Shown here piece after piece: positions 25,350 to 33,741 of a stretch of DNA of 64,000 nucleotides. Every line of letters starts with the position of its first letter. Within the stretch, counting starts at the first letter, position 1. The stretch is taken from assembly GCF_001428895.1 (NCBI RefSeq), contig NZ_LMJA01000029.1, positions 307,982-371,981 on the forward strand. The letters run 5' to 3'. The DNA is from Mycobacterium sp. Root265 (lineage in GTDB: Bacteria; Actinomycetota; Actinomycetes; Mycobacteriales; Mycobacteriaceae). Both the position numbers and the translations under genes were made by a program. The notes under the pieces are model-generated. The model worked only from the letters and a program-made list of their open reading frames with translations. It did not search any database and was not told the DNA's origin.

Positions 25350-26585
25350 ATGAACACTTCAGATACGTTGCGCCGCTTCAGTAAAGCCGGTGCCCTCGCC
25401 GTCAGTGTGCTGGTGTTTGCTGCGTGTGCAGCGCCCGACGATTCCGCGACCACGGAGTCACCCGGTGCGCCGGCGGCCAATGTGCCCACGACCACCGTGG
25501 CGCCCATCGTGAGCCCCACCCTGCTCGACGCCGGCACCTACCCGACGGCGCCCAGACCGCCGCTGGGCAATGCCGGTGACCCGCGCATCGGCGCTGTCAC
25601 CGACGCCCAGAATCTCGCCGACCTCGTGATCGGTCCGTGGGAGGCCGACGAGGCCCTGGTCACCCCCTACCTGGCCACCTACTACCTTCTGGACTCAGCG
25701 GGGTCGCTGATGCAGTTCGCGCCGGAGACCGTCGCGCAGCAGGCCGAACGCCACGGGTTCGTCAATGGGTTCGCCTCGGCCCGGCAGGTCACCGACAAGA
25801 CGGTGATGATGAATGCGGTGTTCCGGTTTCCCGACCCCGCGGCCGCCACCGCGGCCGCGAAGGACATGAACTCCGGTGCCGCCGCCCAGTCTGTCCGCGG
25901 CGCCACCCCGACGCCGGCGGTGATTCCCGGTCATCCCGAAGCCGCCGCCTCGACATACCCCTTCACCCCACACGAATCGGACAAGGAGTGGACGGTGGTC
26001 CGGTCGTTCTCCCCGCACGGCCCCTATGTGTTCATGCAACTCGTCCAGTCCGTCGACGGTTTCGATCCAGCCGCGGCGTTGGTGCGCAAGGCCATCGAGG
26101 TGCAGGGCCCACGGATCGACGAGTTCCAGCCGGCACCGGCCGATGCGCTGGCCGACGTTCCGCTGGACCCGACCGGTCTGCTGGCCAAGACACTGCCCCT
26201 GGCAGGCAGTGCCGCGCCCACGAAGAACGCCGTCTACACCCGGCGTGGCGCAGTGCACTTCCAGAGCAATCCCATCGCTTCCAAGACGCTGTTCACCGAT
26301 ACCGGCGTGACCGCCGTGGCCATGGCACTGACCAACGTCTACGAGGCAAAGAGTCCCGGTTTGGCATCGATGGTCGTCGGCTCCTTCAGCAAGGAGGTCA
26401 CCGCGCAGGGCGCGGCGCCCGCCGACCCGGTGCCCGCCTTGCCCGACAGCCACTGCTCGGCGCGCGGAAAGGCGTTCTACTGCGTCGCCGCCGCGGGACG
26501 GTACGCCGTGGAGGTCAACGCCGAGTCGCTGCCGGCAGCGCATCAACAGATGGCGGCGCAGTACATCTTGCTGACCGCGGGCTGA
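25350..26585 (+). CDS. Secreted lipoprotein, DUF7373-like
   Basis: A 411-residue exported protein with a lipobox, VFAAC, placing the acylated Cys at residue 26. A Pro/Thr/Ala-rich linker (27-60) follows, then a globular domain with DPRIGAVTDAQNLADLVIGPWEADEALVTPYLATYYLLD-type segments typical of the mycobacterial DUF7373 lipoprotein family. Three Cys near the C-terminus (SHCSARGKAFYCVAA) may pair. Function unknown. An imperfect inverted repeat (GGTCC...GGACC, 25325-25347) lies in the 54-bp leader. Confidence 0.75.
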   Translation: MNTSDTLRRFSKAGALAVSVLVFAACAAPDDSATTESPGAPAANVPTTTVAPIVSPTLLDAGTYPTAPRPPLGNAGDPRIGAVTDAQNLADLVIGPWEADEALVTPYLATYYLLDSAGSLMQFAPETVAQQAERHGFVNGFASARQVTDKTVMMNAVFRFPDPAAATAAAKDMNSGAAAQSVRGATPTPAVIPGHPEAAASTYPFTPHESDKEWTVVRSFSPHGPYVFMQLVQSVDGFDPAAALVRKAIEVQGPRIDEFQPAPADALADVPLDPTGLLAKTLPLAGSAAPTKNAVYTRRGAVHFQSNPIASKTLFTDTGVTAVAMALTNVYEAKSPGLASMVVGSFSKEVTAQGAAPADPVPALPDSHCSARGKAFYCVAAAGRYAVEVNAESLPAAHQQMAAQYILLTAG

Positions 26586-26588
26586 TCC

Positions 26589-26680
26589 TTCCCCCGATCG
26601 GGGGACATCGGGTTCACCCGGTGCGAGGGCCAGTTGGCCGACAGACGGGGCCTGCTGCCGGCGGCATTCTTGAGTCATCA
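26589..26680 (+). promoter_or_regulatory. Conserved 92-bp upstream block, copy 1, with 16-bp palindrome
   Basis: This stretch aligns without gaps to 32577-32668, 71 of 92 positions identical by hand count. It opens with the palindrome TCCCCCGATCGGGGGA (26590-26605), identical in both copies, then CCGGTGC, GTTGGCCGACAGAC, a variable 20-nt GC-rich stretch, and CATTcTTGAGTCATCA. The palindrome ends 104 nt before the ATG at 26709, exactly as in the other copy. CATTCT could be a -10. The likely binder is the LuxR-type regulator encoded at 29768, because copy 2 sits beside that gene. Confidence 0.8.
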
Positions 26681-26708
26681 GAACAGCAGCAACACAAAGG
26701 ATTACGAC

Positions 26709-26933
26709 ATGAACGCCGTCACCCGCCGCATCGCCACCGGATTCGCCGTCGCCGCCGCACCGGCCATCATCGCGGTGGGCGCCGCCACCACATGCCACGC
26801 GCAGGCCACCGCGGTGAACACCTACGGACCCACCACCAGCCAGGCCGCCGCGACCCACCAGAGCCACGCACCGCAGACCGGGGTGAGCAGCCTGAGCCGT
26901 CGTCATCACCACGGCTACTACCACCGCCGCTGA
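26709..26933 (+). CDS. Small secreted His-rich peptide (paralogue of the gene at 32697)
   Basis: A 74-residue protein with a signal peptide: a charged start (NAVTRR), a hydrophobic core (ATGFAVAAAPAIIAVGAA) and likely cleavage after CHAQA. The mature part is about 40 residues, Thr/Ala/Gln-rich, ending SRRHHHGYYHRR, a possible metal-binding tail. It shares ATGxA...AIxAVGAxTT...ATAVN with the peptide at 32697, and both genes have the same 92-bp upstream block. Not a family I recognise. GGATTACGAC precedes the ATG. It was accepted because of the paralogue and upstream conservation, which a chance frame would not have. Confidence 0.75.
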   Translation: MNAVTRRIATGFAVAAAPAIIAVGAATTCHAQATAVNTYGPTTSQAAATHQSHAPQTGVSSLSRRHHHGYYHRR

Positions 26934-26999
26934 TTACTCCCGCGCCTGCCCGGGTACAGGGTTCCGGACAAGGTGACCACCAACCGTGAGGACAGCGCA

Positions 27000-27113
27000 A
27001 TGACATCTCAGGACCCGAAGCCGACCGAAGTCCAGGCCGACGAAGAGGTGCTCGCACCGGCCACACCGGGGGCCGAAGCCCTGCCGACCGAGGAACCCGA
27101 CGAGTCCGAGTAG
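27000..27113 (+). CDS. 37-residue acidic peptide
   Basis: A very short frame: MTSQDPKPTEVQADEEV, then an Ala/Pro/Thr/Glu stretch ending PDESE. About a quarter of residues are acidic and none are aromatic, so it should be disordered. Support for translation: GAGGA lies 7 nt before the ATG, the chain is followed at 14 bp by a strong terminator, and GGGTAC at 26952-26957 could be a stress-sigma -10. Function unknown. The terminator shows a transcript ends here, but does not prove translation. Confidence 0.5.
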   Translation: MTSQDPKPTEVQADEEVLAPATPGAEALPTEEPDESE

Positions 27114-27127
27114 CACCCGGCCCACCC

Positions 27128-27167
27128 GAAAACCCGTAGTCCCTCCGCGAAGGGACTACGGGTTTTC
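27128..27167 (+). terminator. Strong intrinsic terminator (17-bp perfect stem)
   Basis: GAAAACCCGTAGTCCCT pairs perfectly with AGGGACTACGGGTTTTC across the 6-nt loop CCGCGA. The GC-rich stem ends in TTTT on the plus strand and AAAA on the left side, so it can act in both directions. It separates the small-peptide genes from the cupin operon at 27241. Confidence 0.9.
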
Positions 27168-27240
27168 CGTGATTCTGTAACCCCGCAGCCGGTGCGAATG
27201 TCGTAGCAGCAGGAACGAACGCCGCTACGAAAGGAACACC

Positions 27241-27654
27241 ATGTCGGACGTACTGGAGAAGCTCACCAAGGCGATGAAGGTCATCCAGGGGGTGCAACCA
27301 CCGTTCATTCCCGAGGGTGCCCACGCGATGACCGCGATCATCGAGTGGGGACCGGGTGACCCCGGCGCCCCACCGCACCGCCACCCCGGCGGCCCTTGCT
27401 TCGGTTACGTCCTCGAAGGCGAGATGCTCTTCGAACTCGAAGGTGAGGCTCCGCGCGTCATCAAGGCCGGCGAAGCATTCTGGGAGCCGGGCGGCGATGT
27501 CATCCACTACTCCGACGGCAACAACCGCGACGATGTGCCGCTGCGCTTCCTGGTCACCATGCTGTGCTCACCCGAGCAGCAGATGTTCGTCATCGTGGAC
27601 GACGCCGAACTCGAAGCCCGCCGGGACCGTCGCGTGCCGGGAGATGCGAAATGA
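27241..27654 (+). CDS. Cupin domain protein
   Basis: A 137-residue single-cupin protein. The metal-binding pattern is visible: PHRHPGGPCFGYVLEGEMLFELEG (two His, a downstream Glu-bearing strand) and the second motif GGDVIHYSDGN near 83-93. Such proteins bind a divalent metal and act as oxygenases, isomerases or ligand sensors. AAAGGAA lies 5 nt before the ATG. It is the first of four genes joined by ATGA overlaps with two NmrA-type reductases and a nitroreductase, so it may take part in detoxifying a small electrophile or aromatic. Substrate unknown. Confidence 0.82.
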   Translation: MSDVLEKLTKAMKVIQGVQPPFIPEGAHAMTAIIEWGPGDPGAPPHRHPGGPCFGYVLEGEMLFELEGEAPRVIKAGEAFWEPGGDVIHYSDGNNRDDVPLRFLVTMLCSPEQQMFVIVDDAELEARRDRRVPGDAK

Positions 27655-28409
27655 AAATCGTCATCGCCGGCGCGACCGGCAACGTCGGAAAGCATGTCGT
27701 GAACGAGGGTCGTCGACGCGGCCATGATGTCATCGCGCTGTCCCGCGCATCCGGCCAGGATGTGACGACCGGCAAGGGCCTGGTGGAGGCGATGGCCGGC
27801 GCCGACGCCGTCATCGACGTGTCCAGCCAGATGATCATGAACACCGCCAAGGCGGTCGCCTTCTTCACCGACGCGACCCGCAACCTGCTGGCCGCCGAAC
27901 GCACCGCCGGCGTCGGTCACCATGTGGCGCTCTCCATCGTCGGCATCGACGGTCTCGACACCGGTTACAACGCAGGCAAACTCGCCCAGGAGCGGCTGGT
28001 GTCAGAATCCGAGGTCCCGTGGACCCTGCAGCGCGCCACCCAGTTCCACGAGTTTGCCGGGCAGGCCTTGGCGCAGGGCACGATCGGACCCGTCGCTCTG
28101 GTGCCGAAGATGCTGCTCCGACCGGTGGCCGCCCGCGAGGTCGCCGAGCGTCTGCTCGACCTCGCCGAAGCAGGGCCGGCCGGTCGGGTGCGGGACCTCG
28201 TCGGGCCACGCGATGAGACGCTGATCGGCATGGTGCGAAAGACGTTCGCCCACGACGGCATCAAGCGCCGGCCCATCAGCGCCGTGCTGCCCGGAAAGTA
28301 CTGGCGCGCCGCTCGCGCCGGAGCTCTGCGCGGCACCGATGACAGTGTCACGGGCCGGCTCACCTTCGACCATTGGCTGCAGAGCCCGGATAAGGAAATG
28401 TCGAAATGA
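27651..28409 (+). CDS. NmrA/SDR-a NAD(P)-binding protein, copy 1
   Basis: A 252-residue atypical SDR. KIVIAGATGNVGKHVV (residues 2-17) is the GxxGxxG Rossmann motif. ADAVIDVSSQM and HHVALSIVGIDGLD are typical of the group related to mycobacterial reductases annotated as NAD(P)H-binding. FDHWLQSP closes the C-terminus. It overlaps the cupin stop by 4 nt and the next gene start by 4 nt. It is paralogous to that next gene (shared GADAVIDV/DADAVIDV, LSIVG, RATQFHE), so the two may form a heterodimer or act in sequence. Confidence 0.82.
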   Translation: MKIVIAGATGNVGKHVVNEGRRRGHDVIALSRASGQDVTTGKGLVEAMAGADAVIDVSSQMIMNTAKAVAFFTDATRNLLAAERTAGVGHHVALSIVGIDGLDTGYNAGKLAQERLVSESEVPWTLQRATQFHEFAGQALAQGTIGPVALVPKMLLRPVAAREVAERLLDLAEAGPAGRVRDLVGPRDETLIGMVRKTFAHDGIKRRPISAVLPGKYWRAARAGALRGTDDSVTGRLTFDHWLQSPDKEMSK

Positions 28410-29134
28410 AGATCACCATCGTCGGCGCCACCGGTCAGATCGGCAGCCAGCTCGTGCCCTTGCTGACGGCGGCCGGCCATCACGTCACCGCCGCCTCTCG
28501 TGACTCAGGGGTGGACGCGGCCATCGGATCGGGTCTGGATGCGGCGCTGGGCGACGCCGATGCCGTCATCGACGTACTCAACTCCCCGACCACGGAAGAC
28601 GATGCGGCGCTCGCCTTCTTCACCGCGACATCGTCCAATCTGACCATGGCCGCGAAGAAGGCAGGGGTGCGGCACTACGTGTTGTTGTCCATCGTCGGTG
28701 TCGACGCCCTACAGGGTGGCGGATACCTGCGCGGCAAGGTCGTGCAGGAGAAAACCGTTGCGGACTCCGGACTTCCGTACACCATCGTGCGGGCGACTCA
28801 ATTCCATGAGCTCACCGAGCTGATCGCCGGCTCGCTGGTCACCGACGGACAGGTGCACGCGCCCGATGCGCTGATCCAGCCGATCGCCTCGGCCGAGGTC
28901 GCCGCCGTGCTCGCCCGGATCGCCACCGAACCCCCCGCTGACGGCGTGCATGACGTGGGCGGGCCCGACACGTTGACCTTCGCGGAGATGGCGTCCCTGG
29001 TGCTGGGCCTGCCCGCCGTCGTCGACCCGGACGCCACCTATTTCGGCACGCCGGTGACCGAGCGCAGCCTGGTCACCGGCGACGACGCCGAGCGGGGGAC
29101 GACCCGGCTCTCCGATTGGCTCGGTGCGCGATGA
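28406..29134 (+). CDS. NmrA/SDR-a NAD(P)-binding protein, copy 2
   Basis: A 242-residue paralogue of the preceding gene. KITIVGATGQIGSQLV is the Rossmann motif at residues 2-17. VLLSIVGVDALQGGGYLRGKVVQEKTV and YTIVRATQFHELTELI follow. The C-terminus ends TTRLSDWLGAR, the same closing motif as copy 1 in a diverged form. ATGA overlaps link it to both neighbours. A tandem duplication that diverged within one operon is the simplest explanation. Confidence 0.82.
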   Translation: MKITIVGATGQIGSQLVPLLTAAGHHVTAASRDSGVDAAIGSGLDAALGDADAVIDVLNSPTTEDDAALAFFTATSSNLTMAAKKAGVRHYVLLSIVGVDALQGGGYLRGKVVQEKTVADSGLPYTIVRATQFHELTELIAGSLVTDGQVHAPDALIQPIASAEVAAVLARIATEPPADGVHDVGGPDTLTFAEMASLVLGLPAVVDPDATYFGTPVTERSLVTGDDAERGTTRLSDWLGAR

Positions 29135-29778
29135 GTACGCTGAGCGAGGTCGTGAACGGCCGGCATTCGTCCCGAAAGTTTCTGCCGGACAGGCCGGTTC
29201 CGGTGCATCTGCTCGACGAGGCGCTGGCATTGGCGGCGCGGGCCCCGTCGAATTCCAATGTGCAGCCGTGGCGGCTGTTCCTGGCCACCGGAGACCGGCG
29301 CGACAAGCTGGCGGCCGCGTTGTCGGCGCAGGCCCACATCAGCCCGCCCGCAGATCTGGGACTTCCCGAGACGTTCGCCCCGCTGCGGCGTGAACTGGGT
29401 GCGCTCATCTACGGCGCAATGGGCGTCGCACGTGACGACGCCGAAGGCCGTTGGGCGGCCCAGCTGCGCAACTTCGAGTTCTTCGGCGCGCCGGTGGCCG
29501 GAATCATGTGCATGCACCGCGACCTGGGTCTGCCCGATGCACTCGGGGTCGGGATGTATCTGCAGACCCTGCTGCTGGCGCTGACCGAGCGCGGGATCGA
29601 CAGCTGCGTGCAGGTGTCCACGGCGCTGTATCCCGACATCGCCCGCGAACAACTCGGGATTCCCGATGAGCTGACCGTCCTGTGTGGGCTGTGTATCGGT
29701 TACGCCGACCCGGATTTCGCTGCCAACAATCTGAGCATTCCGCGAAACAGCTTGGGTGACAACGTCATCATCCTGTGA
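29131..29778 (+). CDS. Nitroreductase family protein
   Basis: A 215-residue FMN-dependent nitroreductase. RHSSRKFLPDRPVP at residues 11-24 is the FMN phosphate-binding start, and APSNSNVQPWRLFLATG (42-58) is the second FMN motif. ALGVGMYLQTLLLALTERGIDSC and GIGYADP-like CIGYADPDF follow. Family members reduce nitro groups, quinones or enones with NAD(P)H. Start ATG 29131 gives the ATGA overlap with the previous gene; a GTG/ATG 15 nt upstream is less likely. The 3' end overlaps the LuxR gene by 11 bp, convergently. Confidence 0.85.
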   Translation: MSTLSEVVNGRHSSRKFLPDRPVPVHLLDEALALAARAPSNSNVQPWRLFLATGDRRDKLAAALSAQAHISPPADLGLPETFAPLRRELGALIYGAMGVARDDAEGRWAAQLRNFEFFGAPVAGIMCMHRDLGLPDALGVGMYLQTLLLALTERGIDSCVQVSTALYPDIAREQLGIPDELTVLCGLCIGYADPDFAANNLSIPRNSLGDNVIIL

Positions 29779-32533
29779 ACAACGCACGCAGCTCGCGCCG
29801 TGAGCGGATATTCAACTTGGCGAACACTTTCCGCAGGTGGTACTCGACGGTGTGCGCGCTGATGAACAGCTGGCCGGCGATCTCCTGATTGGTCAGACCC
29901 CGGCCGGCGAGCTGCGCGATCTGATGTTCCTGCGCGGTCAGCGCGTCACCGGTGGCCGTGGGTTGTTTGCGGGTCTTGGCTCCAGCCGCCTGAAGTTCGC
30001 GTCTGGCACGCTCGGCGAACCCCGTAGCGCCCATCTGCTGCAGCGAAACATGCGCCGCGCGAAGCTGATCACGGGCCTGCTTGGCGGCACGGTGTCTGCG
30101 CAGCCATTCCCCGTACAGAAGCTGGGTGCGTGCGAGGTGGATGGCCTGGCGGGTGCGGCCGAACTGATTCAGCGCTTCCTGAAAGAACTGTTCGGCTTCT
30201 TCCTCTCCGGCGAGCAGCGCCCGGGATCTCGCCAACGAGCCGAGCGCTCGCGGACTTCCGCAGGCGAGTGTGCGCCCTTCCAGCTGTTGCAGGGCGTCCG
30301 TGGCGCTGTCGGGGTCGTCGGCACGCACAGCGGCCTCGATGAGTTCGAGCAGTAGCTCGCTGAAAAATCCGAGGTCCTCGTATTCGAAGGCGCGCAGCGC
30401 GCCTTCCAGAGCCTCGGGGTAGCGGCTCTTGCCGTTGTTGAGGATCGCGGTGCCCAGGTACGCCAGGCCCGCGATGCGGCCCTCACCGCGGGCCGCGCTG
30501 TCCTTGAGTGCGGAGTTGATCAGACGCGTCGCCTCCGCGTCGTCCCCGCGCCACGCGGACAGCACCAGCCGGTGGTACTTGAGCGGTGTGTAACCGGTGG
30601 CTATCGCGGTCTCGTTGGCTTCCGCGACCGACGCCTGCGCCGATTCCAGCTCGCCGGCCTCCATATGTGCCCCCGCGCGTGCGAGCAGCGCAGACGGAAG
30701 CAACGCCAGCGCACCGCGTTCGGTGGCGAGACTCATTGCAGATGAGGCAATCTCGTGCCAACCCTCATCGTCCCACGCCTCATGGATCAGTGACTCGTGC
30801 ACGACGGGAAAGCCCAGCCAGAACCACCGGTTGCGCTGGCCCGCGACCTCGTCGCGGCCGGCGCGCTTGAGGGTCTCCACCGCGCGGACCACCGCGGGCA
30901 TCGACGCCGCGGCGCCGAGCGCCAGTCGATCGGCCAGCGCATGGGTGACCTCGTCCAGGGGGCGCGCGGGGGTCACACCGGCGAAGGCCCGCCGCGCAGC
31001 CACAGCGATCTGCTCGGCTTTCGGTCCACCCCGCCGGCCGAGGTACATGGCGGCGCTCATCGCCTCGAGGTAGGCCTCGGTGGCCATCTCGGCGTCCAGA
31101 AGCTCCAGTTGTGCTGCCACGGAGCTGAATCCGTCGACGGACGCGACGAGGGCCTCGGCGTCCCCCCGGGTCCGCGCCGACACGAACACCAGCCGGGTGC
31201 GTAACTGGGCCAGCCGGGCGCGCTGCAGCTCCGAGAGCGGGCAGAGTTCGGCCGTCGCCAGCAGCTGCTGCGCGGCCTCGAAGGAAGCTACTTCGCGATG
31301 GGTCTCCGCGGCGTCCAATGCCCGTATGCCCCGGGTGGCTGGGTCCGGCGTCAGTTCGACCGCACGGGTGAGAAACGCCGCGGCGGCCGCCGTCCCGCCC
31401 CTGAGGCGGGCCCGGCGGGCAGACGCTTCGAGTTCGTCGGCAACCTGCGCGTCGACGGTGTCGGCAGCCAGCGCGCGGTGCCAGGCGCGGCGGTCGGGGT
31501 CGGCGTCCGGGTCGGTGCACGCGGCCAGTGCCGCGTGCACGGTCCGGCGCTCATCCAGGGCGGCCGACCGGTAGACGACGCTGCGTGCGAGTGGATGCTG
31601 AAACTGCACCCGGGTCTCGATGGTGATCAGTCCGGCATCCTCGGCCTTTGTCGCCGCATCGGGCGGGAGGTCCAGATGCTGCATGGCGCGGCGTAGCAGG
31701 ACCGGATCGCCGACCGGTTCTGAGGCCGCGAGGAGCAGGACTCGACGGGCCGCGAGCGGTAATGACTGCACGGTGGCCTGGTAGCGATCTTCGATCTCGG
31801 CGACGACGGGCCGCCGGTCCGGTCGCTGATAGCCGCCGGCCAGTTCCACGGCGCTCAGATCCTTGGTGATGGCCAGCAGTGCGAGCGGGTTTCCCCGCGC
31901 CTCGGCGACGATACGGTCGCGGACCGCAGGGTCCAGCCGTCCGGGAAAGCTGGTCTCCAGCAGCTCGCGCGCGTCCTCGTCGTCGAGGCCCCCGACCGCC
32001 ATCGCGGGCAACCCGGAGATTCCGTCGATCGGTGTCCGCAACGCCAGCACCAGGCAGACCCGTTCGGCGAGCAGGCGGCGCGCGACGAAGAACAAGGTCT
32101 GGGCCGACACGGTGTCCAGCCACTGGACGTCGTCGATGACGAGCAGCACGGGCTGCTCCGCGGATGCGGCAGCAAGCAGACCGACCACGGCCAGACCGAC
32201 GAGGAACCGGTCCGGCGTGGGCGCGGAGTCGCTGAGACCGAAGGCTCCCTCCAACGCGGCGCGCTGCGGAGCGGGCAACGCCCGCCGCATGTCCAGGATC
32301 GGTGCGCACGCCTGTTGCAGCCCGGCGAACGGAAGCTCCATATCCGACTCGATGCCGGTGGCGCCGAGCATCAGGAAGCCGGACGCGGACGCGCGCAGGT
32401 GCTGCAGCAGAGACGATTTGCCGATGCCGGCCTCGCCGAGGAGCACACGCACTCCGCTGCCGCCGGCGCGGACCGAGGCCAGCAGATCGTCCAGCACTCG
32501 GCACTCGGCGGCACGACCGGGTAGCGCAGTCAT
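29768..32533 (-). CDS. Large AAA-ATPase LuxR-family regulator (LAL type)
   Basis: A 921-residue signal-transduction ATPase with C-terminal LuxR HTH. Walker A is GEAGIGKS at 33-40 and Walker B is VLLVIDDVQWLD near 130. A long helical middle (about 300-820) probably forms TPR-like repeats for ligand or partner binding. The HTH is LTAQEHQIAQLAGRGLTNQEIAGQLFISAHTVEYHLRKVF, quoted as LTNQEIA and SAHTVEYHL. The start ATG 32533 fits the usual distance to Walker A; an ATG 63 nt upstream is possible. A 16-bp palindrome centred at 32585 lies 46 bp upstream, shared with the divergent peptide gene, so it is the prime candidate to bind both conserved blocks. Confidence 0.88.
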   Translation of the reverse strand: MTALPGRAAECRVLDDLLASVRAGGSGVRVLLGEAGIGKSSLLQHLRASASGFLMLGATGIESDMELPFAGLQQACAPILDMRRALPAPQRAALEGAFGLSDSAPTPDRFLVGLAVVGLLAAASAEQPVLLVIDDVQWLDTVSAQTLFFVARRLLAERVCLVLALRTPIDGISGLPAMAVGGLDDEDARELLETSFPGRLDPAVRDRIVAEARGNPLALLAITKDLSAVELAGGYQRPDRRPVVAEIEDRYQATVQSLPLAARRVLLLAASEPVGDPVLLRRAMQHLDLPPDAATKAEDAGLITIETRVQFQHPLARSVVYRSAALDERRTVHAALAACTDPDADPDRRAWHRALAADTVDAQVADELEASARRARLRGGTAAAAAFLTRAVELTPDPATRGIRALDAAETHREVASFEAAQQLLATAELCPLSELQRARLAQLRTRLVFVSARTRGDAEALVASVDGFSSVAAQLELLDAEMATEAYLEAMSAAMYLGRRGGPKAEQIAVAARRAFAGVTPARPLDEVTHALADRLALGAAASMPAVVRAVETLKRAGRDEVAGQRNRWFWLGFPVVHESLIHEAWDDEGWHEIASSAMSLATERGALALLPSALLARAGAHMEAGELESAQASVAEANETAIATGYTPLKYHRLVLSAWRGDDAEATRLINSALKDSAARGEGRIAGLAYLGTAILNNGKSRYPEALEGALRAFEYEDLGFFSELLLELIEAAVRADDPDSATDALQQLEGRTLACGSPRALGSLARSRALLAGEEEAEQFFQEALNQFGRTRQAIHLARTQLLYGEWLRRHRAAKQARDQLRAAHVSLQQMGATGFAERARRELQAAGAKTRKQPTATGDALTAQEHQIAQLAGRGLTNQEIAGQLFISAHTVEYHLRKVFAKLNIRSRRELRALFTG

Positions 32534-32576
32534 CGCGGCAAGTCTGTCACAGCGACAGCGCCGCCGCGGTTCTCGG

Positions 32577-32668
32577 TTCCCCCGATCGGGGGACATGGAA
32601 TTCCCCCGGTGCAGGGGCCGGTTGGCCGACAGACCGCCCGCGGACTGCGGCGCATTGTTGAGTCATCA
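32577..32668 (+). promoter_or_regulatory. Conserved 92-bp upstream block, copy 2, with 16-bp palindrome
   Basis: The second copy of the block at 26589-26680 (71/92 identical, gap-free by hand). The palindrome TCCCCCGATCGGGGGA is at 32578-32593. The 3' part reads CATTgTTGAGTCATCA. It lies between the LuxR gene (start 32533, minus strand) and the peptide gene (ATG 32697, plus strand), and the palindrome-to-ATG distance (104 nt) equals that of copy 1. Conservation falls in short islands separated by a variable stretch, as expected of a promoter plus operator rather than a recent copy of a gene. Confidence 0.82.
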
Positions 32669-32696
32669 ACAGCCCAGCGTCCCAGGAGATCACGAG

Positions 32697-32891
32697 ATGA
32701 AGAGCATCGGCCACCAGTTCGCCACCGGAATCGCACTGCTGGGCGCCACCGCCATCCTGGCGGTCGGCGCCATGACCACCAATCAGGCCATGGCCGCCAC
32801 CGCCGTCAACCCCGATGCGAGCGCCGTCCAGACGGTCTCCACTCATGTCGGTGCGCCGCAGCTCAATTCTGGCGTGGCAGAAGCTCGGTGA
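32697..32891 (+). CDS. Small secreted peptide (paralogue of the gene at 26709)
   Basis: A 64-residue protein with signal peptide (MKSIGHQFATGIALLGATA, AILAVGAM; likely cleavage after NQAMA). The first 38 residues align with the peptide at 26709 (ATG-A, AI-AVGA-TT, ATAVN), but it lacks the His-rich end and stops at GVAEAR. The last 29 bp overlap the convergent LLM gene, so the C-terminus may have been shortened or replaced when that gene was placed there. AGGAG precedes the ATG at a spacing of 9. Unknown function; probably extracellular or cell-envelope. Confidence 0.72.
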   Translation: MKSIGHQFATGIALLGATAILAVGAMTTNQAMAATAVNPDASAVQTVSTHVGAPQLNSGVAEAR

Positions 32892-33741
32892 CGAAGTTGT
32901 CGATGAAGTGCCGGGTGGGTACCGAACCCACGGTGCTGATGACGAACTTCGTCAGTCCGGCTTCGATGTAGCCGTCCAGCAATCGGTGCAACGCCGGCCA
33001 ACTGTCGGCGATCAGATCACCGGGATCGCAATCGGGACGTTGCCGGCGGATGAGATCGCCCACCTGGGGCGGAACACCGCCCTCGGCGAACAGCACGGTG
33101 ATCCCGAAATGGTCGGGTTCTATCGCGCGCCCCGCCTCGGTGGCCGCGGCGATGATGGATTGGCGCGCCCGACCGGCTTCCGCGGGTGTCAGGAAGCTAC
33201 CGAGCCAGCCGTCGCCGTACGTGCCGACGCGACGCAGTGCCGCGGGGGCCGACCCGCCGAGCCACACATCGATCGGCGCGACCGGCCCGGTGTCCAGCCG
33301 GAAATCCAGGTCGAAGTGATCACCATGAAAGGACACGTCGGTGCCGGTGAGCGCCGCGCGCAGCAGGCTCAGGGACTCATCGAACAGCTCCGCCCGGCGA
33401 CCCTCCGGCGCCGGGAACAGCCGGCGCTCGGCAGGCTGTGCGGCCCGCAGACCGAACACCGGGAGAATGCGTTTGGGTGCCAGGGCGCTCAGTGATGCCA
33501 GCTGTTTGGCCACCAGCACCGGGTGCCGCCCGGGCAGGATCGCCACGGACGTGCCGACTTTGAGCCGCGTGGTCCGCGCGATGGCGAAGGCCATCCCCAC
33601 GGTGGGGTCGACGGCAGGTGAGTAGACGAGTTCGGGAAACCACAGGGAATCGACACCCGAGCTCTCCAGGGTGTCGACGATTTCGGCCAGGCCCCCGGGT
33701 GAGGTGCTACCGCCCAGCGCGACGCCGAATCGGACTTTCAC
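32863..33741 (-). CDS. LLM-class F420-dependent oxidoreductase (single-barrel)
   Basis: A 292-residue luciferase-like enzyme, of the length annotated in mycobacteria as TIGR03854-like. SLWFPELVYS, VDPTVGMAFAIARTTRLKVGTSV near 44-66, and IDVWLGGSAPAALRRVGTYGDGWLG around 160-181 are the family blocks. It starts at GTG 33741, 6 nt after the STAS gene stop, so both are probably co-transcribed. Cofactor F420 is likely from taxonomic context. Substrate unknown. Confidence 0.82.
   Translation of the reverse strand: MKVRFGVALGGSTSPGGLAEIVDTLESSGVDSLWFPELVYSPAVDPTVGMAFAIARTTRLKVGTSVAILPGRHPVLVAKQLASLSALAPKRILPVFGLRAAQPAERRLFPAPEGRRAELFDESLSLLRAALTGTDVSFHGDHFDLDFRLDTGPVAPIDVWLGGSAPAALRRVGTYGDGWLGSFLTPAEAGRARQSIIAAATEAGRAIEPDHFGITVLFAEGGVPPQVGDLIRRQRPDCDPGDLIADSWPALHRLLDGYIEAGLTKFVISTVGSVPTRHFIDNFVTELLPRQN

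Follow-up and report, generated by a model that had tools for sequence, protein, structure and literature searches.

A widespread mycobacterial promoter module before small secreted-type peptide genes and its probable control by a NarL-type two-component pair

Two related small peptide genes of Mycobacterium sp. Root265 are each preceded by a similar sequence block, and one of them lies divergent from a giant LuxR-type gene: which regulator acts on the blocks? The first-pass annotation of this 64,000-nucleotide stretch of DNA (the window) had assigned both peptides to that neighbour. Comparison across the genus and the family leads us to a different answer, namely that a kinase and a NarL-type response regulator encoded far from the window, rather than the neighbouring LAL-type protein, probably switch on both promoters.

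Two blocks and their peptides

The blocks, at 26589-26680 and 32577-32668, align without gaps and are identical at 71 of 92 positions, confirming the initial alignment; extended to 120 bases, the identity is 86/120. Each opens with the palindrome TCCCCCGATCGGGGGA, a 7-2-7 inverted repeat (TCCCCCG AT CGGGGGA; 26590-26605 in copy 1 and, as an exact string match, 32578-32593 in copy 2, no strand assigned). A string search of the whole 6,668,100-base host genome (6.67 Mb in 30 contigs, grouping with Mycobacterium/Mycolicibacterium) found this exact string at no other site, and each of the two sites stands before a peptide gene. The palindrome starts 119 nt upstream of the ATG in both copies; the equal spacing of 104 nt reported earlier is correct when counted from the last palindrome base to the A of the ATG (26709 and 32697). 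When the 120-bp block was searched against the genome by BLASTN, the best match was the other copy (E=8e-19), the next place scoring 0.37. With three mismatches allowed the palindrome has 2 matches in the window, a count reached by 31 of 100 shuffles and not unusual, so the weight rests on the exactness of the match, on the whole block and on its relatives. The palindrome core CCCCGATCGGGG occurs at 5 sites in the host genome and at one site or more in 137 of 148 genus genomes, and is therefore not specific by itself.

Peptide 1 (26709-26933, + strand) has 74 residues and a histidine-rich end, RRHHHGYYHRR, whilst peptide 2 (32697-32891, + strand) has 64. They share 28 of 59 aligned residues and the motif ATAVN, which bears out their description as paralogues; the signal peptide of that description corresponds to a hydrophobic N-terminal stretch in both (hydropathy), from which we infer that both are of secreted type. 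A search of Pfam and NCBIfam profiles assigned neither peptide to a family at E<=0.001. An upstream coding frame, in-frame from a TTG through the block, was considered and rejected, as the differences within the 92 bp fall 6/9/6 by codon position, with no bias, and the gaps of an alignment of blocks collected by similarity (A1) are not multiples of three. Scanning 26500-33000 for consensus promoters and terminators gave no promoter and 2 terminator-like sites, against 2.3 in shuffles. Separately, positions 27133-27170, after a 37-residue acidic frame, carry ACCCGTAGTCCC...GGGACTACGGGT followed by a T-rich run and read as an intrinsic terminator, unlisted by the consensus scan.

Each block contains a putative operator region, at 26590-26646 (+ strand) in copy 1, with the palindrome, an ATTC-like middle element and, about 36 bp downstream of the palindrome, a degenerate second site, GGCCAGTTGGCCGACA, and at 32578-32634 (+ strand) in copy 2, with two sites. 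(Near-)invariant columns of A1 mark a candidate -10-like element, CATTCTT at 26665-26671 and CATTGTT at 32653-32659 (both + strand). Forty-six aligned blocks, 2 from the host genome and 44 from named contigs, yielded the consensus GTCCCCCGATCGGGGGACA-N4-ATTCATCCGG-N8-CCGGTCGGCGGACAGAC, in which the first site is the 7-2-7 inverted repeat and the second, about 36 bp further downstream, is a repeat of CCGRTCGGnGGACA with a degenerate left half. Invariance of the first site is partly by construction, since the 44 blocks were collected by its exact pattern (in the pattern scan of named genomes, 80 loci were read from 100 stretches); A1 displays the same first site. In the host genome, a 60-position operator model scored copy 2 at E=3e-15 and copy 1 at E=6e-14, followed by a partial match at 0.005. 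As only the two window sites score, the recognisable regulon here would consist of the two peptides.

In many mycobacterial blocks (L069-L148) the leader can form a hairpin, GCCGGAACACACCGGC, downstream of the -10-like element and ahead of the ribosome site; in several copies it sits within longer TTATTTC/GAAATAA arms, and it may have a role in mRNA stability or translation. Its GCCGG...CCGGC stem, present in so many copies, is what one would expect if conservation of the block mainly reflected a role as RNA leader, the palindrome forming a transcript hairpin. However, the -10-like element lies 75 bp downstream of the palindrome start, and neither window copy has the GCCGG...CCGGC hairpin: like L010 and L011, both are without the hairpin-capable stretch of about 26 nt. 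Rfam returned no match at the gathering score for 10 loci including both host-genome blocks, and the consensus structure from RNAalifold had just 7 pairs and virtually no covariation (-0.15). We thus give the RNA leader next to no credence.

The module across the genus and the LAL neighbour

The two window blocks are one instance of a promoter module widespread in the genus. A DNA search with copy 2 found the module in 146 of 298 genus genomes, with two candidates scored per genome, making copy numbers lower bounds. A 147-position model built from 30 aligned blocks, with up to 10 candidates scored per genome and a stricter filter that loses weak matches, found the block at E<=0.001 in 225 of the 298, with up to at least 10 matches in a genome. 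We examined 80 of 136 block regions (batches 1, 2, 4 and 5 of 7, ordered by block score), so that the counts of peptides and of neighbours are weighted towards blocks with high scores. Here, 91 of 93 block matches precede an open frame of 61-84 residues, chosen by rule (ribosome-site-like bases, ATG first), whose distance from the block start is 120-150 nt (for 66/91, 144-146 nt), and 78 of the 91 peptides hold at least three histidines within their last 45 residues. By eye, the peptides form loose groups (MKSIGHQF..., ...HHHHQRNHAK and ...KAHPAP...HHG) whose common features are mainly a hydrophobic start and, for most peptides, a His-rich end. Recurrent neighbours of the block, a cytochrome P450-like gene, a PknH-like lipoprotein and a dehalogenase-like gene (named by eye), reflect shared synteny.

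Single loci vary this layout. One stretch (G063:C14:18052-26747, L083) holds five block-peptide units in about 9 kb, a lineage-specific expansion, and smaller clusters occur in G087, G109 and G291. At L037 (G222), a GTP cyclohydrolase-like gene (by eye) takes the place of the peptide downstream of block-like sequence.

The LAL-type gene (29768-32533, - strand) lies divergent from copy 2 and encodes 921 residues with AAA_16 and GerE domains, in keeping with its earlier naming. Had this protein bound the palindrome and activated both peptides, and perhaps itself, as originally proposed, its GerE domain and its position across the divergent gap would fit, and the same arrangement recurs in G096 (LAL 89% identical) and G121 (82%). 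Over the 298 genomes, however, block and LAL (E<=1e-60) are not associated: both occur in 145, the block only in 80, the LAL only in 44 and neither in 29 (p=0.58), so that the expected co-occurrence with the LuxR orthologue did not materialise. Three LAL candidates were scored per genome, with identities read best first; among the matches listed, LALs of at least 72% identity are found in five genomes (G000, G096, G121, G178 and G090; the next is at 65%) and are absent from 221 of the 225 block-bearing genomes (block versus such LALs 4/221/1/72, p=1). Only 3 of the best 30 LAL loci (G000, G096 and G121) have a block within their flanks of about 1.5 kb, the other 27 having none, and G178 keeps a LAL match (74%, one internal stop) without a block match.

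The LAL gene belongs to a cassette at 27645-32573 (no strand assigned), together with two NAD(P)-binding genes and a nitroreductase. In G034, 4 bases separate the sequence that matches window 25350-27644 from that matching 32574 onward; the cassette is absent, and the two block-peptide units are spaced about 1.1 kb apart. Both units are also close together in G198, where the cassette is again absent. G187, the rpoB sister of the host genome in a 71-genome tree, is missing the whole stretch 26586-32853 (no strand assigned): the DUF7373 gene found upstream of block 1 is separated there by 4 bases from the segment matching window 32854 onward, and this genome is without both peptide units, the cassette and the response regulator described below. 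The cassette is a later insertion or has been recurrently lost, and since both peptide units occur in G034 and G198, where it is missing, and block and LAL are not associated, the LAL is not a conserved partner of the block. We consider it very improbable that the LAL regulates the peptides. A possible second LuxR-type neighbour, an 882-aa cyclase/ATPase divergent from the block at L119 and L126, was also set aside, its last 80 residues having no obvious LuxR-type end by eye.

A response regulator and kinase distributed with the block

A NarL-type response regulator recurs beside peptides of different groups in 14 of the 80 block regions, 13 of which also hold a histidine kinase match. At E<=1e-40 the regulator occurs in 219 of the 298 genus genomes, and it is strongly associated with the block: both are present in 216, the block only in 9, the regulator only in 3 and neither in 70 (Fisher p=6e-54). 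The family threshold was set at E<=1e-60, at which the genus would lose G107 (6e-58). Among the nine block-only genomes, block scores are weak in three (G022, G089 and G127; 2e-4 to 1e-3) and some of the nine are incomplete, whilst G054 (1e-12), G055 (1e-10) and G209 (3e-9) are strong exceptions. For a test on an rpoB tree, 80 genomes were chosen, comprising all 12 discordant genomes, 36 with neither and 32 with both, of which 71 entered the tree (9 had no rpoB match) and 9 of the 12 discordant ones were retained. On this single-gene, midpoint-rooted tree parsimony counts 15 block and 14 regulator changes, and even with every discordant genome chosen for the sample, a dependent model was favoured over an independent one (lnL -66.8 vs -86.9; LR 40.2, 4 df, p=4e-8). 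In one survey of regulator loci, nineteen were picked mostly for having no listed block beside them, so that this survey gives no unbiased rate of adjacency.

The same association was observed in a family sample of 241 genomes from 31 genera, searched with a separate 60-position operator model under a stricter filter that loses weak matches. The operator was found in 67 and the regulator (E<=1e-60) in 64, with both in 61, the operator only in 6 (E 9e-6 to 8e-4), the regulator only in 3 and neither in 171; outside the genus the counts are 44/6/3/168 (p=4e-36). At least 27 of 66 regulator matches have a divergent operator within 300 bp (outside the genus, at least 16 of 48), and at least 39 of the 66 have an operator within 5 kb.

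In the host genome, the regulator (G000:C26:60461-61060) carries a Response_reg domain (PF00072, E=3.5e-24) and a C-terminal GerE domain (PF00196, E=2.8e-14). The kinase directly downstream (L209:3830-4996) has HATPase_c (PF02518, E=2e-14), five hydrophobic segments by hydropathy and a HisKA_3 match (PF07730) of 24.6 bits against a cut-off of 24; in orthologous kinases HisKA_3 falls under the cut-off (L215) or is not listed (L106). The regulator lies 273,510 bases from block 1. Its upstream 400 bp hold no palindrome at up to 3 mismatches, and a block profile search of the 10.6-kb stretch around it gave no match. That the host regulator is unlinked to the peptides, with no operator found beside it, speaks against the pair. 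Even so, we consider it likely that the blocks are promoter-operator modules of a two-component regulon, in which the kinase and the NarL-type regulator switch on secreted peptides. What stands from the first-pass annotation is a two-member secreted-peptide regulon with a shared operator; its regulator is reassigned from the LAL to the NarL-type pair.

Co-occurrence with the block was computed for two factors, the response regulator and the LAL, so another gene of the same distribution could be the binder, the pair then being a co-inherited neighbour or a further target. In favour of this, a divergent operator is often present at the regulator gene, as expected of a gene that is no more than a target. 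Against it, block and regulator also co-occur where the two are unlinked, the host genome being an example, and beyond the genus, where the target genes differ, and the palindrome has the 7-2-7 geometry that characterises the operators of NarL-type regulators. We therefore regard a different transcription factor as unlikely, and retain the NarL-type pair as the candidate regulator.

Proposed circuit, other targets and known systems

In the circuit that we propose from these comparisons, a membrane histidine kinase of the HisKA_3 class, NarX/UhpB-like and with five hydrophobic segments, would phosphorylate the NarL-type response regulator. The phosphorylated dimer would bind the 7-2-7 palindrome TCCnCCGATCGGnGGACA and, about 36 bp downstream, the degenerate second site, and would activate transcription from the CATTSTT-type -10, upon which the small peptides would be made and secreted. 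In the host genome, the pair, which lies on G000:C26 some 273 kb away from the window, would have the two peptide genes as its two recognisable targets; these genes are near each other in relatives, and the LAL cassette would have come between them later (or been lost elsewhere).

The signal is most likely cell-envelope stress, as suggested by the exported-looking targets and by a kinase sensor part that is mostly membrane segments. A LytR-CpsA-Psr gene adjoins the regulator-kinase pair in G087 (L215, profile match) and apparently in G119 (L217, by eye), which fits such a signal; beside the host pair an alpha/beta hydrolase stands in its place. In M. smegmatis, the pair may be MSMEG_0105/0106. 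That species has an LCP paralogue, MSMEG_0107 (PMC4981717).

Some operator stretches in named genomes precede gene kinds other than the peptides, which counts against the proposed circuit. In 6 of 12 named Rhodococcus stretches the regulator (74-75% identity) lies divergent beside the operator, and 4 of these 6 also have a kinase match (57-59%). At L235, L257, L268, L273, L239 and L258 the operator, with the regulator next to it, precedes a secreted-type protein of 153-158 residues, for which no Pfam match above cut-off was obtained; L273, from Rhodococcus jostii, holds operator, regulator and kinase together. Twelve related proteins of 150-174 residues come from Rhodococcus, Gordonia and Antrihabitans. 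A structural model of the R. opacus target (L235; pLDDT about 80, and >90 over much of the folded part) matches the fold of aegerolysin-like Cry34Ab1 and of actinoporins, at about 20% identity and with no Pfam family above cut-off. The modelled fold, which in itself shows no function, suggests a membrane- or lipid-facing role for this target; the mycobacterial peptides are not concerned.

Among slow-growing mycobacteria, five loci (L270, L274, L275, L286 and L305) have a compact operator with the second site CCGATCGGnGGAT. Its distance to the downstream ATG is 85-87 nt, and the protein encoded there, of 435-442 residues (cut by the stretch end in L286), is permease-like by eye. At L250, L269, L285, L304 and L306, from M. 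sphagni, M. vinylchloridicum, M. pinniadriaticum and Mycobacterium sp. BK086, a conserved peptide of 61-65 residues (..WLERAGSSLSGA..LPLVAAAHLPVF) with no obvious signal peptide follows the operator.

These targets bear on whether the peptides might be both signal and output, in a secreted-peptide quorum or self-sensing circuit where the multi-span kinase would detect the peptides and the regulator amplify them, with lineage-specific expansion of peptide paralogues such as the five units in G063. We find such a circuit improbable, given that the operator precedes 150-174-aa proteins in Rhodococcus and relatives, one of them modelled as a beta-sandwich, and a permease-like protein in some slow growers. 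Envelope stress acting through the NarL-type pair is the reading that we prefer.

The pair resembles NarL/FixJ-type systems (NarXL, DevRS/DosRS, LiaRS) in its receiver and GerE regulator, in a kinase with HATPase_c and, just over cut-off in the host copy, HisKA_3, in its 7-2-7 dyad operator and in the divergent, autoregulation-like layout seen in many genomes. It differs in score from the named equivalogs: three regulator orthologues (L106, L128 and L133) reach 125-139 bits against a cut-off of 250 for NarL (NF007935) and 104-117 bits against 300 for MadR (NF047785), whilst the best NCBIfam equivalog for their kinases is MctS, at 114 against a cut-off of 700. These scores suggest that the regulator-kinase pair forms its own subfamily. 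The enterococcal MadRS envelope-stress system likewise consists of a response regulator and a kinase, and its cell-envelope target class may be similar; unlike in that system, the NCBIfam cut-offs for MadR and MadS are not reached here. LAL regulators (MalT-like; mycobacterial IniR) share AAA_16 and GerE with the neighbouring gene, which is not associated with the operator. MSMEG_0244/0246 was considered as the present system and rejected, being called PrrAB-like in its paper (PMC7516205). Searching the open-licence PMC literature by operator strings, subject and M. smegmatis locus tags found no description of the regulon. NarL-type systems are known; this pair and operator with secreted-peptide targets are, so far as searched, undescribed in that literature.

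Taken together, this analysis describes a promoter module carried by most sampled mycobacteria and some rhodococci, and a widespread, uncharacterised family of mycobacterial secreted-type peptides that is, on our reading, tied to one two-component system and one operator. It also illustrates that a divergent neighbour can mislead, the conspicuous LAL gene not being the conserved partner. As the operator yields candidate targets in Rhodococcus and in slow-growing mycobacteria, the signal and the function of the system become testable.
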